DNA from: Methanobrevibacter smithii ATCC 35061 | GTDB lineage: Archaea; Methanobacteriota; Methanobacteria; Methanobacteriales; Methanobacteriaceae | Assembly: GCF_000016525.1 (NCBI RefSeq) | Contig: NC_009515.1 | Span: forward strand, 62,001 to 126,000 | DNA: 64,000 nt | Direction of reading: 5' to 3' | Shown here: piece after piece, positions 49,294 to 53,704 of the stretch | Layout: each line of letters starts with the position of its first letter | Numbering within the stretch: the stretch's first letter is position 1 | The notes under the pieces: model-generated | Seen by the model: only the letters and a program-made list of their open reading frames with translations | Told to the model about the DNA's origin: nothing | The model's database searches: none | Translations under genes and position numbers: made by a program

Positions 49294-49968
49294 ATGAGTA
49301 GTTTAGAAACCAATCAAGAGTATAGTAAGATACTTGAAGACAATGTTAAATTAACCTGTAAAGCTGTAGCTGTTAAATTATTAGCCAGTGAAGAAGAGCT
49401 TCCTGAAGGCTATGATTTAATAGATGAAAAAGTCAGACATTGTGAAATGATTAGAAAAGCATCATATGGAGAAAAATTTTACAGTACCATTGAACAGCAA
49501 TCCTGTTTAGGCGGAGCTGGAGCTATCGGTCTTAGAGATATGCCTCCTAAATTAGCTAGTGGAGAAAAATATTTTGAATTAGGAAGATTTAAAGATTTAA
49601 AAACAGCAAAAGCAGCTACTGAAAAACTTTCAATAATCAAAGAAAGATACTGGGGAATTGTTTATTCACCTTTAGATGAAGCTACTTTTAAACCTGATGT
49701 AGTTTTAATAATTACAGAACCTGTTGGTGGAATGAAATTAGCTCAAACTATTGTTTATTCTTCCGGAGATAAAGTAAGACCTAATTTTGCAGGTATCCAA
49801 TCCCTTTGTGGTGACGCTTTAGCTAATCCATTTATAACTGGAGGAGTTAATTTTACTTTAGGCTGTGACGGTTCCAGAAATGCTGCCGATATTAAAGATA
49901 ATGAAATGACCATTGGAATTAGTGGTGAAAAATTAGAAGAAGTTATTTCAAACCTACAAGCTATCTAA
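49294..49968 (+). CDS. DUF169 family protein
   Basis: A 224-residue protein with KLTCKAVAVKLLASEEELPE, RHCEMIRKASYGEKFYSTIE, QQSCLGGAGAIGLRD and LFTLGCDGSRN-like ending (VNFTLGCDGSRNAADI). This is the DUF169 family, frequent in methanogens and clostridia; no enzymatic role is known. Conserved cysteines point to metal or cofactor binding. AAGTGATATT precedes the ATG. It probably continues the helicase-nuclease transcript (24-base gap). Its 3' end overlaps the opposing transferase gene by 15 bases. Confidence 0.82.
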   Translation: MSSLETNQEYSKILEDNVKLTCKAVAVKLLASEEELPEGYDLIDEKVRHCEMIRKASYGEKFYSTIEQQSCLGGAGAIGLRDMPPKLASGEKYFELGRFKDLKTAKAATEKLSIIKERYWGIVYSPLDEATFKPDVVLIITEPVGGMKLAQTIVYSSGDKVRPNFAGIQSLCGDALANPFITGGVNFTLGCDGSRNAADIKDNEMTIGISGEKLEEVISNLQAI

Positions 49969-50613
49969 TAACTTTAAATAATCATCATAATGATTTATAT
50001 TTAATAATTCCAGCTCATTTTTTTCTTTTATTCCATAAAAAGTGTAACCATCACCAAATATTTTTCTTAAAATCGGATTTAAATTATCGTTTTCATTTTC
50101 TAAATATTTTATCATATTATCCTTAAATACTACAAAAGGCATTCCCAATCCTTCAGCAGTGTCTAGCAAACCTGTTTTTCTACGTCTTAAAACAGCTATT
50201 GTTTTTTCAGGATTATCTGAATTTTTACAAACATTAATCATTTCATTAAATGTTTCACTTGATACTGTCGGCTGGTCTCCAGTTATGCAAAGTGCAAAAT
50301 CAGAACTGATATTTTTTAAACCATTTAAAAGAGATACTGATAAACCTACATCAACAGGATTATTTTCTATAAACTTTACAGAATCTTTATAATTATCAAA
50401 AACAACCTCTTTTATTTCATCACTGTAATGACCTAATACAACAATACATTCATCTACATTTGAGGATAATGCATTATCAATAGTTGTCTCTAAAACACTT
50501 TTATTTTGAAACGGAAGAACAAGTTTGTTTTTTACTGAAATATTTCGGGAAATCTGATCCTTTCTCATACGGGAATTTTTACCTGCAGCGGTAATAATAG
50601 CTGAAACTGTCAT
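49954..50613 (-). CDS. MobA/MocA-like nucleotidyltransferase
   Basis: About 219 residues with the NTP-transferase signature SAIITAAGKNSRMRKDQ, then NKLVLPFQNKSVLETTI, VVLGHYSDEI and CITGDQPTVS. The family transfers CMP, GMP or similar groups, for instance to molybdopterin. The substrate here is unknown. GTG at 50622 lies in the AGTGTTT signal region; ATG 50613 gives the usual family start MTVSAIITAAG. Methanogens need molybdopterin for formylmethanofuran and formate dehydrogenases, so cofactor cytidylylation is one option. Confidence 0.8.
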   Translation of the reverse strand: MTVSAIITAAGKNSRMRKDQISRNISVKNKLVLPFQNKSVLETTIDNALSSNVDECIVVLGHYSDEIKEVVFDNYKDSVKFIENNPVDVGLSVSLLNGLKNISSDFALCITGDQPTVSSETFNEMINVCKNSDNPEKTIAVLRRRKTGLLDTAEGLGMPFVVFKDNMIKYLENENDNLNPILRKIFGDGYTFYGIKEKNELELLNINHYDDYLKLLDSL

Positions 50614-50658
50614 AATAAACACTAAAAAAAAAGTAAAGTAAAAGATAAATAATTATCT

Positions 50659-51843
50659 TCAACTTGGAATGAATCTTTCTATCTTACCATAAATTGCCAT
50701 GCCTGTACCTGAACCTTCAGTCCACATTACTATTTTGACTGGATAATCATGATTATTTGTAACTTTAATATCTTCAGAAGGATTAAATCCAAATAATACT
50801 GCATCATTATCTCCACACATACCTACCGGCAATCCAAATCCTTCAGCAAGAACAGCTGCTCTTAATACTCTAGCTGGTGGACATACACCATGAGAAGCAC
50901 TGCCTCCAGGAGCATTACTATCAGAAGCAGAACCAAAATCAATATATGCTTTTCCATTTCCACTTGAATTTGGTGGAATTACTGTATTATTCCATGCATC
51001 TACAAAAGATCTTGCATTAAATTCTCTTACTCCGTCTCCATATTCAGGGTGAGAACCTAAAGAAGTAGAATAAACTTCACCATCTTCTTCTGTAACATTA
51101 CCCATATACAATACAATAGGAGTGCCGTCAGGATATGCTGCCACATAATCGGACACATTATCACCAAATATGATGGACACATTACCCGCACTTATATTGT
51201 TTCTTCCGTCAGAAAAGTTAACAATTCCGCGTTCCAGTGTGAAGTTAGATTTGTCGGAATCATAATTATACCAATTTTGAATAGTTGTAGTATTGTAATA
51301 CTTGCCTCCAAAATCAGTATTTTTAATTTCTGAAGTAGGAATTGATTCAACAACAGTACCATTTTCCACAACATCAACACCATCAGATGTTTTGGTTAAA
51401 ATCTTATAAGGTGCACTGTAACCCCATACATAAGTATGCGGAGCTTTAACAGCTAATTGATTACCTTCATAAGTCAAATAACCAGGACCTTCAAATCCCT
51501 GTGCCTTACCATAAGAATCTATACCTTCAGTGGATATTGTAGTAAAGTCAAATGGAACAGTTCCAGTTGTTAAAGTTATTAGTATACCCTGCAAATCAAG
51601 ACTTTTAATCTGATGAGCCATAAAAGGCAAATTACCTAACAAAGGTAATTGAATTGATTGATTTTCACCTAAAATGGAATCCCCTTCAAACATAGACTGA
51701 CCAATAGGCAAATTATAATCCTTTGCAAAAGATTCACCAGTGTATGCAGTATGATTTACAAAAGAAAATGCGAATAAAAGTAAAGAAATAAAGAATAATG
51801 CCAATATTATCTTAATAGATGTACTTCTCCATTCATAACTCAT
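50659..51843 (-). CDS. Membrane-anchored VanW-like domain protein
   Basis: About 394 residues. An N-terminal hydrophobic segment (IILALFFISLLLFAFSFV) anchors or exports it. The middle is strand-rich with many Asn-x-Ser/Thr sites. The C-terminal ~75 residues (HGVCPPARVLRAAVLAEGF, DNDAVLFGFNPSEDIKVTNN, DYPVKIVMWTEG) match the layout of the bacterial VanW domain (GiCQvsStlynA...DAtv...DlkfkN...pi.i). VanW proteins are linked to peptidoglycan. The next gene upstream is a Mur ligase, which suggests a pseudomurein role. TTG 51861 lies before GAAGGTG; ATG 51843 is chosen. Confidence 0.65.
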   Translation of the reverse strand: MSYEWRSTSIKIILALFFISLLLFAFSFVNHTAYTGESFAKDYNLPIGQSMFEGDSILGENQSIQLPLLGNLPFMAHQIKSLDLQGILITLTTGTVPFDFTTISTEGIDSYGKAQGFEGPGYLTYEGNQLAVKAPHTYVWGYSAPYKILTKTSDGVDVVENGTVVESIPTSEIKNTDFGGKYYNTTTIQNWYNYDSDKSNFTLERGIVNFSDGRNNISAGNVSIIFGDNVSDYVAAYPDGTPIVLYMGNVTEEDGEVYSTSLGSHPEYGDGVREFNARSFVDAWNNTVIPPNSSGNGKAYIDFGSASDSNAPGGSASHGVCPPARVLRAAVLAEGFGLPVGMCGDNDAVLFGFNPSEDIKVTNNHDYPVKIVMWTEGSGTGMAIYGKIERFIPS

Positions 51844-51928
51844 ATTATTTAACACCTTCAATAATAATATAACAATAGTATATTTAGTTACTATTATATT
51901 TATATATTTTTATTCTAATGAATACAAA

Positions 51929-53209
51929 CTAAAGGTTTTCAGACAAGAGCCTTATTCTTTCTTGAATCTCAATAATAGCTTCCTGACCGTTGCCTCCAAT
52001 GAAAAGTGCATCTTCATGAGAAAATTCAGCGATAAGAGCAATTATTTCATCTAATGAGTTAGCTACCTCAATTCTACCCTCATAACCAAGTCTGTTTAAA
52101 CGATAAAGTCCCATATCAACAGTATCATCTAATCCCGGAAACAGAACAATAACTTCAGGATTATATTTAACCGCTTCATCCAAAATACTTAATCTATGTT
52201 CTTCATTAGCCCTTGGAGTACCTATAAATAAAGCATAGAAATCATTCTCATTTAAAACTGAAGTTAATGCATCTGAATTATCAGTTTTACCTACAAAAAT
52301 TGAAGCATTATTAATTTTATAAACATTCATTCTTCCTTCAACTGCTTTAAAATCAGCTAAAGATCCCATGATAATGTCCTTAGGTATTTTAAGCTCAGTA
52401 GCTATAGCTGCAACCAAACCAGCATTTAATGCATTGAATCTGCCCCAAACTTGCAATTTTTCATCATATTCAAAGAAAGGAATAGCTTTACTGGCCACTT
52501 CTTTAAAATCAGCATTGAAATCCTGATTAAAAGCTGTAAAAGCCGTTTTGCCTTCAAAGAATCTTACCAAAGTATTTTTATAATTGGCTATTGTCTTATG
52601 AACATCCATATGATCATTGCCAATATTGGTAAGGCCCACCATATCGAAATCAAAGCAATAATTGCAAAAATCAAGTGTCATATCACAAACTTCAACAAGT
52701 AAAATATCATAATCATCATTTGACGCTTCTAAAATTAAATCATAGTAACCTGAAAAGCCTCCACCACCATTTCCGCCAACTAAAACTTTTTTGCCCGCAT
52801 TTTCCAAAATACTTTTTAACATATGGACACTTGTAGTTTTACCGTTAGTTCCTGTAATGCCAATAGTAAAAATGTCTTTATGTTTAGTTACAACATTGCT
52901 TAACAGTTTGCCTTTTTCAAGCAATTTATCTGCAAAAGCTCCTCCGTACATACTGGGACTAATAGCTATTGCATCACATTCTTCAATTGCACTTGAATTT
53001 GAAAAACCTAAATCAACAGTTAAATTATCAGAAACAATGGAAACAGTTTCACCACCACTGACCAAATTCATTGAAATCATAGGCAATTCCAAATCTGATA
53101 AATCAACATTACTATTTAAATCAGTGGCATAAACCTCCCAACCATGACTTAAAAGAGAATTGACTGCCTTTTTTCCTTCCACACCTAAACCTATAACTGC
53201 TGCTTTCAT
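51929..53209 (-). CDS. Mur ligase family protein (pseudomurein peptide ligase)
   Basis: A 426-residue ATP-dependent ligase. It has an N-terminal Rossmann-like domain (AAVIGLGVEGKKAVNSLL), the ATP loop FTIGITGTNGKTTSVHMLK, the VGLTNIGNDHMDVHKT block with Mg-binding residues, WGRFNALNAGLVAAIA and EGRMNVYK. This is the MurC/D/E/F fold. Methanobacteriales make pseudomurein with such enzymes; the exact amino acid added cannot be read. AAGGTAT precedes the ATG. The VanW-like protein gene follows on the same strand after 85 bases. Confidence 0.88.
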   Translation of the reverse strand: MKAAVIGLGVEGKKAVNSLLSHGWEVYATDLNSNVDLSDLELPMISMNLVSGGETVSIVSDNLTVDLGFSNSSAIEECDAIAISPSMYGGAFADKLLEKGKLLSNVVTKHKDIFTIGITGTNGKTTSVHMLKSILENAGKKVLVGGNGGGGFSGYYDLILEASNDDYDILLVEVCDMTLDFCNYCFDFDMVGLTNIGNDHMDVHKTIANYKNTLVRFFEGKTAFTAFNQDFNADFKEVASKAIPFFEYDEKLQVWGRFNALNAGLVAAIATELKIPKDIIMGSLADFKAVEGRMNVYKINNASIFVGKTDNSDALTSVLNENDFYALFIGTPRANEEHRLSILDEAVKYNPEVIVLFPGLDDTVDMGLYRLNRLGYEGRIEVANSLDEIIALIAEFSHEDALFIGGNGQEAIIEIQERIRLLSENL

Positions 53210-53302: not shown

Positions 53303-53704
53303 ATGTTTGAAGAGGAAAATGACAATAAAATATATCGTCTTATCATCACTAACGGCTATGACAAAAACAGAGAATATGCAAAATTTACCGAGCAAATATA
53401 TTCTAAAACTGATTTTTTATGGAAAGAATCCATTTCCGGGTCTTATTCAACAGCCAATAAAGAATTTTTTGAAAAAATAGATGTTATAATCCTCTTAGCA
53501 GGTTTGTATAACAATAATAAGGAAAATTTTAATGATTTAATTGAAGCTAGTAAAAACTTTGATATTCCAATAGTTCTTGTAAGACCTCACGGACTTGAAG
53601 AAGTTCCTGAAAGTTTAGAAAAAGAAGCATCAACAATTGTAGGATGGAATGCAAACTGTATTGTAGATGCAATAAAAAATGCTGAGGAAATGGGCAGAAT
53701 CTAA
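53303..53704 (+). CDS. TIR-like (ThsB/MTH538-type) domain protein
   Basis: A 133-residue single-domain protein. The order YRLIITNGYDKNREYAKFTE, WKESISGSYSTANKEFFEKI, DVIILLAGLYNNNKENF, FDIPIVLVRPHGLEEVP and IVGWNANCIVDAIKNA matches the TIR-like family of ThsB and MTH538. ThsB proteins signal phage infection in Thoeris systems, but MTH538 is a lone methanogen protein of unknown role. No ThsA-like effector is encoded nearby. AAAAGGTGA precedes the ATG. It stands alone between the Mur ligase and rad50. Confidence 0.72.
   Translation: MFEEENDNKIYRLIITNGYDKNREYAKFTEQIYSKTDFLWKESISGSYSTANKEFFEKIDVIILLAGLYNNNKENFNDLIEASKNFDIPIVLVRPHGLEEVPESLEKEASTIVGWNANCIVDAIKNAEEMGRI

Follow-up and report, generated by a model that had tools for sequence, protein, structure and literature searches.

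A predicted membrane-anchored VanW-like protein encoded next to a pseudomurein Mur ligase in Methanobrevibacter smithii, a candidate wall transpeptidase

The DNA analysed here, called the window, is a stretch of 64,000 nucleotides from Methanobrevibacter smithii ATCC 35061 (positions 62001-126000 of the 1,853,160-base genome). Its region 50659-53209 is made up of two genes, both on the minus strand, encoding the protein PmurA and the Mur ligase pMurD2. Together with the gene found on the other side of PmurA, they form an operon organized in the order pMurD2-PmurA-PmurB (Table 1). Translation of PmurA most likely starts at the ATG at 51843, which has AAGGTG ahead of it, and ends at the stop codon 50659-50661; an alternative TTG start at 51861 gives the longer open reading frame (ORF) 50659-51861. 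The protein exceeds the cut-off of 400 set for the NCBIfam family NF053640, and matches positions 1-378 of the model, that is, its full length. In related genomes PmurA is normally a single-copy gene, with PmurB as its immediate 3' neighbour in 93/97 loci and a pseudomurein Mur ligase as its immediate 5' neighbour in 79/89. The PmurA family already has a name, without an established function; its homology to VanW and its surface location are assigned here.

PmurA is predicted to cross the membrane once, by an N-terminal helix that has positive charges on the side coming first. The protein holds 12 N-x-S/T sequons, 11 of which are located past residue 30, where 3.8 are expected (none of 2000 shuffles scored as high), and no similar enrichment was seen in nine neighbouring proteins. 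Because of the single helix, the charge order and the abundance of sequons, the body of PmurA very likely faces outward and is extracytoplasmic. The initial annotation had read the product as exported and the pseudomurein Mur ligase as lying in line with it. This is right in substance, as one N-terminal transmembrane helix is followed by a predicted outward body, and pMurD2 lies directly upstream. The orthologous group OG0001147 of cluster B, for which Lupo et al. 2025 list neither a domain nor a signal peptide, and 0 transmembrane segments (PMC11915815), is probably the PmurA family. The predicted outward location contradicts the cytoplasmic and glutamate-kinase proposals found in the literature.

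The relationship to VanW escapes standard searches. The Pfam model PF04294 (VanW) had no match in PmurA at E<=10, and none across the genome, and its gathering cut-off was not reached; PDB sequence searches with PmurA returned nothing. Profiles were compared by hhalign. One was built from 39 PmurA, the others, gathered independently, from 14 plasmid-borne and from 16 viral-contig VanW proteins. PmurA matched the plasmid set with a probability of 76.7 and E 2.1e-5, and the viral-contig set with a probability of 95.9% and E 6.3e-9. Real pairs scored 70-73; the 120 column-shuffled profiles never exceeded 22, and the 2 reversed ones never exceeded 14. The alignment spans the R-x-x-N helix, the Cys motif and then the final strands, where N-N-H-D-Y-P-V-K-I-V-M-W of PmurA pairs with N-T-S-G-H-P-I-Y-I-V-M-W of VanW (L168). 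At the level of sequence profiles, VanW homology is statistically secure across the whole domain, and the best explanation is that PmurA is a distant relative, either descended from the VanW domain of bacteria or its sister. PmurA is not a VanW member in the Pfam sense; its VanW ancestry, as read from the profiles, is secure.

The predicted secondary structure points to the same domain. The ColabFold model of PmurA is confident (predicted local distance difference test, pLDDT, 90.1; predicted template modelling score, pTM, 0.81), and was compared, at the level of secondary structure, to a model built from a viral-contig VanW protein. The C-terminal region of the former features helices (H) and strands (E) at H270-284, E287-289, E293-295, H321-333, E360-363, E369-376 and E383-393; in the latter these are H263-276, E279-281, E286-288, H321-334, E368-370, E377-384 and E387-394. 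The secondary-structure order in the VanW-like domain corresponds element by element. In both models a Cys is located at the start of the long central helix (321-333 in PmurA, 321-334 in VanW, where it follows GGG-x-C). Foldseek searches of PDB and BFVD with the PmurA model gave no significant match. No solved VanW was found in PDB by sequence search, and the bacterial VanW model similarly lacked a Foldseek relative for its VanW domain, the best matches being G5-type domains; the empty fold search is therefore not counted against VanW. The empty PDB search does speak against folds well represented there, such as YkuD, transglutaminase and kinase. As to the N-terminal domain, homology to PG_binding_4 was considered and rejected, because the hhalign score was below that of shuffled controls.

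These results modify the initial annotation, which had recognized a VanW pattern in the C-terminal 75 residues and had proposed a profile search and a structure prediction as checks. Homology holds, by profile-profile comparison (E 6.3e-9, with controls) and by the match of secondary structures, although Pfam is silent. The extent does not hold: the domain covers about 130 residues (263-394), and also includes the R273-x-x-N276 helix, upstream of the stretch originally quoted. A canonical VanW domain is not borne out, since there is no Pfam match, the downstream His is lost and the catalytic loop is shortened.

The motif H-G-x-C-P is present in 111/111 distinct PmurA. H318 is the sole invariant His and C321 the sole invariant Cys of these sequences, the former being located three residues ahead of the latter. 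Cys321 is aligned with the Cys of the VanW motif GGG-x-C-Q. In VanW a His (H345) that is invariant in 16/16 viral-contig proteins follows about 23 residues past the Cys, in an ER-x-x-HS loop.

Table 1. Features of the PmurA locus, in window coordinates
Feature	Position	Strand	Evidence
pMurD2, pseudomurein peptide ligase, directly upstream of PmurA in the operon	51929..53209	(-)	NCBIfam 629.6 bits, cut-off 550
PmurA (NCBIfam NF053640, Mfer335 family), predicted membrane-anchored VanW-like protein, 394 residues	50662..51843	(-)	541.4 bits
Transmembrane helix at the N-terminus (residues 3-29), N-in and C-out, preceded by positive charges	51757..51837	(-)	model helix, hydropathy maximum 2.59, charge bias
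Ectodomain, residues 30-262, no known relative	51058..51756	(-)	model, Foldseek, hhalign
VanW-like domain, residues 263-394 (about 130 residues)	50662..51057	(-)	hhalign with controls, matching secondary structure
R273-x-x-N276, equivalent of the R-x-x-N-I helix in VanW	51016..51027	(-)	invariant in 111 distinct PmurA; aligned by hhalign
H318-G-V-C321-P322 motif, proposed nucleophile Cys321	50878..50892	(-)	111/111 distinct PmurA; alignment with VanW
N363, equivalent of the invariant Asn of the VanW motif D-x-x-F-x-N	50755..50757	(-)	alignments, 111 distinct PmurA
PmurB, nucleotidyltransferase-type pseudomurein protein, directly downstream of PmurA	49954..50622	(-)	NCBIfam 330.2 bits, cut-off 260

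PmurA was identified in 134/151 Methanobacteriales genomes, distributed in all three families, and also in genome G151, which we take to be M. fervidus. None was found in 14 control genomes, among which M. jannaschii, Haloferax, Sulfolobus and Methanosarcina. A scan of 84,980 species yielded 89 PmurA relatives, and the 80 listed either carry Methanobacteriaceae titles or are archaeal metagenome-assembled genomes (MAGs) without a finer name. Methanopyrus is outside the collections searched. Restriction to pseudomurein archaea, on which the initial annotation had made its VanW reading depend, holds in every collection searched, archaeal controls lacking pseudomurein being all negative. Within the order the protein is not universal, as two genera lack it and one genome has a broken copy. 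Incomplete assembly probably explains the absence in genomes G059, G025 and G140, from which PmurB and pMurD2 are missing too, wholly or in part. The PmurA of G065 (L187:101-1336) has ten stops in one internal stretch and an open frame on both sides, consistent with two compensating indels, caused by assembly error or decay. Canonical VanW matches detected in the MAGs G030 and G005 (L160, L161) were not used; they are probably bacterial contamination, because the L161 gene adjoins a penicillin-binding-protein-like ORF.

The two genera, g6 (4/4 genomes) and g13 (6/6 genomes), were negative with both full and domain profiles at E up to 10. In the tree of pMurD2 they form separate clades inside PmurA-bearing lineages, so that PmurA was lost at least twice. 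The loci L145-L148 (g6) and L149-L154 (g13) have kept pseudomurein ligases without PmurA; in g6 the gene order is pMurD2-pMurC-PmurB, PmurA being simply missing. Since FdhA is absent in g13, and g11 is taken to be Methanorudis, g13 is probably Methanovirga, members of which live inside termite-gut flagellates; FdhA is missing only in Methanovirga and Methanorudis (PMC13135261). Genus g6, for which intracellular life is not known, possibly corresponds to the M. wolinii clade. The third case is a pseudogene (L186:7641-8834, G018:C62), interrupted by frameshifts and one stop, in a genome that we infer to be that of the ciliate endosymbiont NOE (PMC11287868). Around it, pMurD2, a fused ligase ORF of 1119 residues and PmurB are all open.

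A late role is accordingly probable for PmurA. It is lost or broken alone, Mur ligases and PmurB staying intact, and therefore probably does not take part in the synthesis of precursors. A late, wall-strengthening step would plausibly become dispensable inside a host cell. Pseudomurein is cross-linked by removing a terminal residue and joining glutamate to a neighbouring lysine, and the methanogens having this wall feature no penicillin-binding-protein-like genes (PMC2812497). YkuD-type transpeptidases were found in just 1/151 Methanobacteriales genomes, a single MAG (L185, G035:C23:26768-27238). The initial annotation regarded VanW as a domain of unclear action, which is outdated: the VanW domains of LdtCd4 and LdtCd5 of C. 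difficile are cross-linking L,D-transpeptidases with a Cys-His-small residue triad (PMC12729407). Its suggestion of a wall-assembly role not depending on murein is kept as the best reading. With confidence evenly divided for and against, we propose that PmurA would be a membrane-anchored, outward-facing cysteine acyltransferase, most likely a pseudomurein transpeptidase.

Catalysis, the pseudomurein stem as substrate and the cross-link as product are all features that we infer. Cys321, at the N-terminus of the central helix, would attack a donor stem peptide at the carbonyl of its penultimate residue. With the last residue gone, an acyl-enzyme would remain at Cys321, until the amine on the lysine side chain of an adjacent stem resolved it, forming the Glu-to-Lys cross-link. 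His318 would replace the lost VanW His. A broader formulation, held somewhat more tentatively, is that PmurA is an L,L-transpeptidase of VanW descent, the catalytic His having shifted to lie three residues ahead of the Cys. Related domains would then serve to cross-link chemically different walls in Archaea and Bacteria, and PmurA could be dropped by lineages that live within protist cells.

Several points weigh against a transpeptidase, in addition to those speaking for the alternatives discussed below. The VanW His has no counterpart, as no conserved His is found past C321 in 111 PmurA, and the stretch is shorter there. Some VanW proteins lack transpeptidase activity (PMC12729407). Both pMurC and pMurD2 are present in 10/10 genomes of g6 and g13, and PmurB in 9/10, all without PmurA. 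In the M. wolinii clade the wall seems to be functional pseudomurein, since a pseudomurein endopeptidase inhibits its strain AbM4 (PMC6189367). The main caution comes from the lineages without PmurA: g6 suggests that such a wall can be made without it; hence another enzyme, for example a transglutaminase, may also cross-link. The walls of g6 and g13 are either cross-linked by something else or not cross-linked at all.

The Glu-Lys cross-link might be made by exported transglutaminase-type proteins, PmurA being an accessory wall enzyme involved in carboxypeptidase trimming, remodelling or attachment of surface proteins. Transglutaminases have indeed been proposed as the cross-linkers (PMC2812497, PMC11915815), Transglut_core genes are found in 11/12 genomes tested, including the 4/4 g6 genomes without PmurA, and carboxypeptidase or attachment reactions are equally possible for a VanW-like Cys enzyme. 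We hold this explanation to be unlikely, though deserving attention, because the copy number of transglutaminases varies from 0 to 14 among genomes, none being found in G134 (92% complete), and because their genes sit outside the wall clusters (Lupo et al., PMC11915815). PmurA, unlike them, is normally single-copy and tied to the ligase operon. Loss of the VanW His and shortening of the active-site loop may rather indicate that PmurA is a non-catalytic protein of VanW fold, whose task would be to bind pseudomurein or the precursor stems and to act as a scaffold for the wall machinery; Ser also replaces Cys in some VanW relatives in the alignments, and VanW proteins without transpeptidase activity were mentioned above (PMC12729407). 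Invariance of Cys321 and His318 in 111/111 distinct PmurA is unexpected if neither residue is used, and makes this possibility rather improbable. A published hypothesis makes PmurA a glutamate kinase of the cytoplasm that would initiate the pentapeptide. It is hardly credible: recombinant PMurA of M. ruminantium was reported to hydrolyse adenosine triphosphate (ATP), but glutamyl phosphate was not found (PMC12996149, 2026), there is no Pfam match, a P-loop is lacking (a single match among 111 PmurA), no significant fold match to ATP-using enzymes was obtained, the transmembrane helix with the sequons, and VanW homology, point elsewhere, and a protein missing or broken where later ligases persist is hard to square with a first-step enzyme.

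Some features of the neighbouring genes may be mentioned. An ORF of 133 residues (53303-53704, plus strand), which matches no family, lies in the window upstream of pMurD2 and runs opposite to it. In several related loci (L145, L146, L147, L148, L159) pMurD2 is adjoined by an ORF starting with MFEE. In several lineages, some of which arthropod-associated, two Mur ligases, pMurC and a second ligase half, are fused into a single ORF of about 1060-1160 residues (L159:5710-9189, L186:4195-7551, L155:5918-9118, L156:7135-10320).

In the literature searched, in which coverage of papers naming both words was incomplete, no paper linking VanW and pseudomurein was found, and transglutaminases were the only published candidates for the cross-linker. 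Should PmurA be a pseudomurein transpeptidase, the cross-linking step would be represented by one testable gene, located in the ligase operon. A wall-assembly domain would be added to the parts common to archaeal and bacterial walls, and the published functional guess for PmurA would be corrected. A specific target would also become available in methane-producing gut archaea, which lack penicillin-binding proteins.

PmurA can be compared to several known systems. The M. smithii protein belongs to the family PmurA/Mfer335 (NF053640), and is a full-length member of it; the published annotation gives no domain, or reads 'NTPase/glutamate kinase'. The exported archaeal transglutaminases (OG0000044, Lupo et al. 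2025) are also Cys enzymes and candidates for the same cross-link, and are unrelated to PmurA in sequence. The motif of YkuD L,D-transpeptidases, of S-H-G-C type, is superficially similar to that of PmurA, but no YkuD was among the Foldseek PDB matches listed. PmurA shares with the aligned VanW proteins the R-x-x-N helix, the G-x-C opening the central helix, and the strands carrying [D]A[TV] and N-x-x-x-P-x-x-I. It differs from them in having HG-x-C-P where VanW has GGG-x-C-Q, and in missing the His-bearing loop past the Cys. LdtCd4 and LdtCd5 are similarly built, with a single N-terminal membrane anchor, an extracytoplasmic body and the domain at the C-terminus. In contrast to these, the N-terminal domain of PmurA is not detectably PG_binding_4, and PmurA would act on all-L peptides carrying isopeptide bonds.
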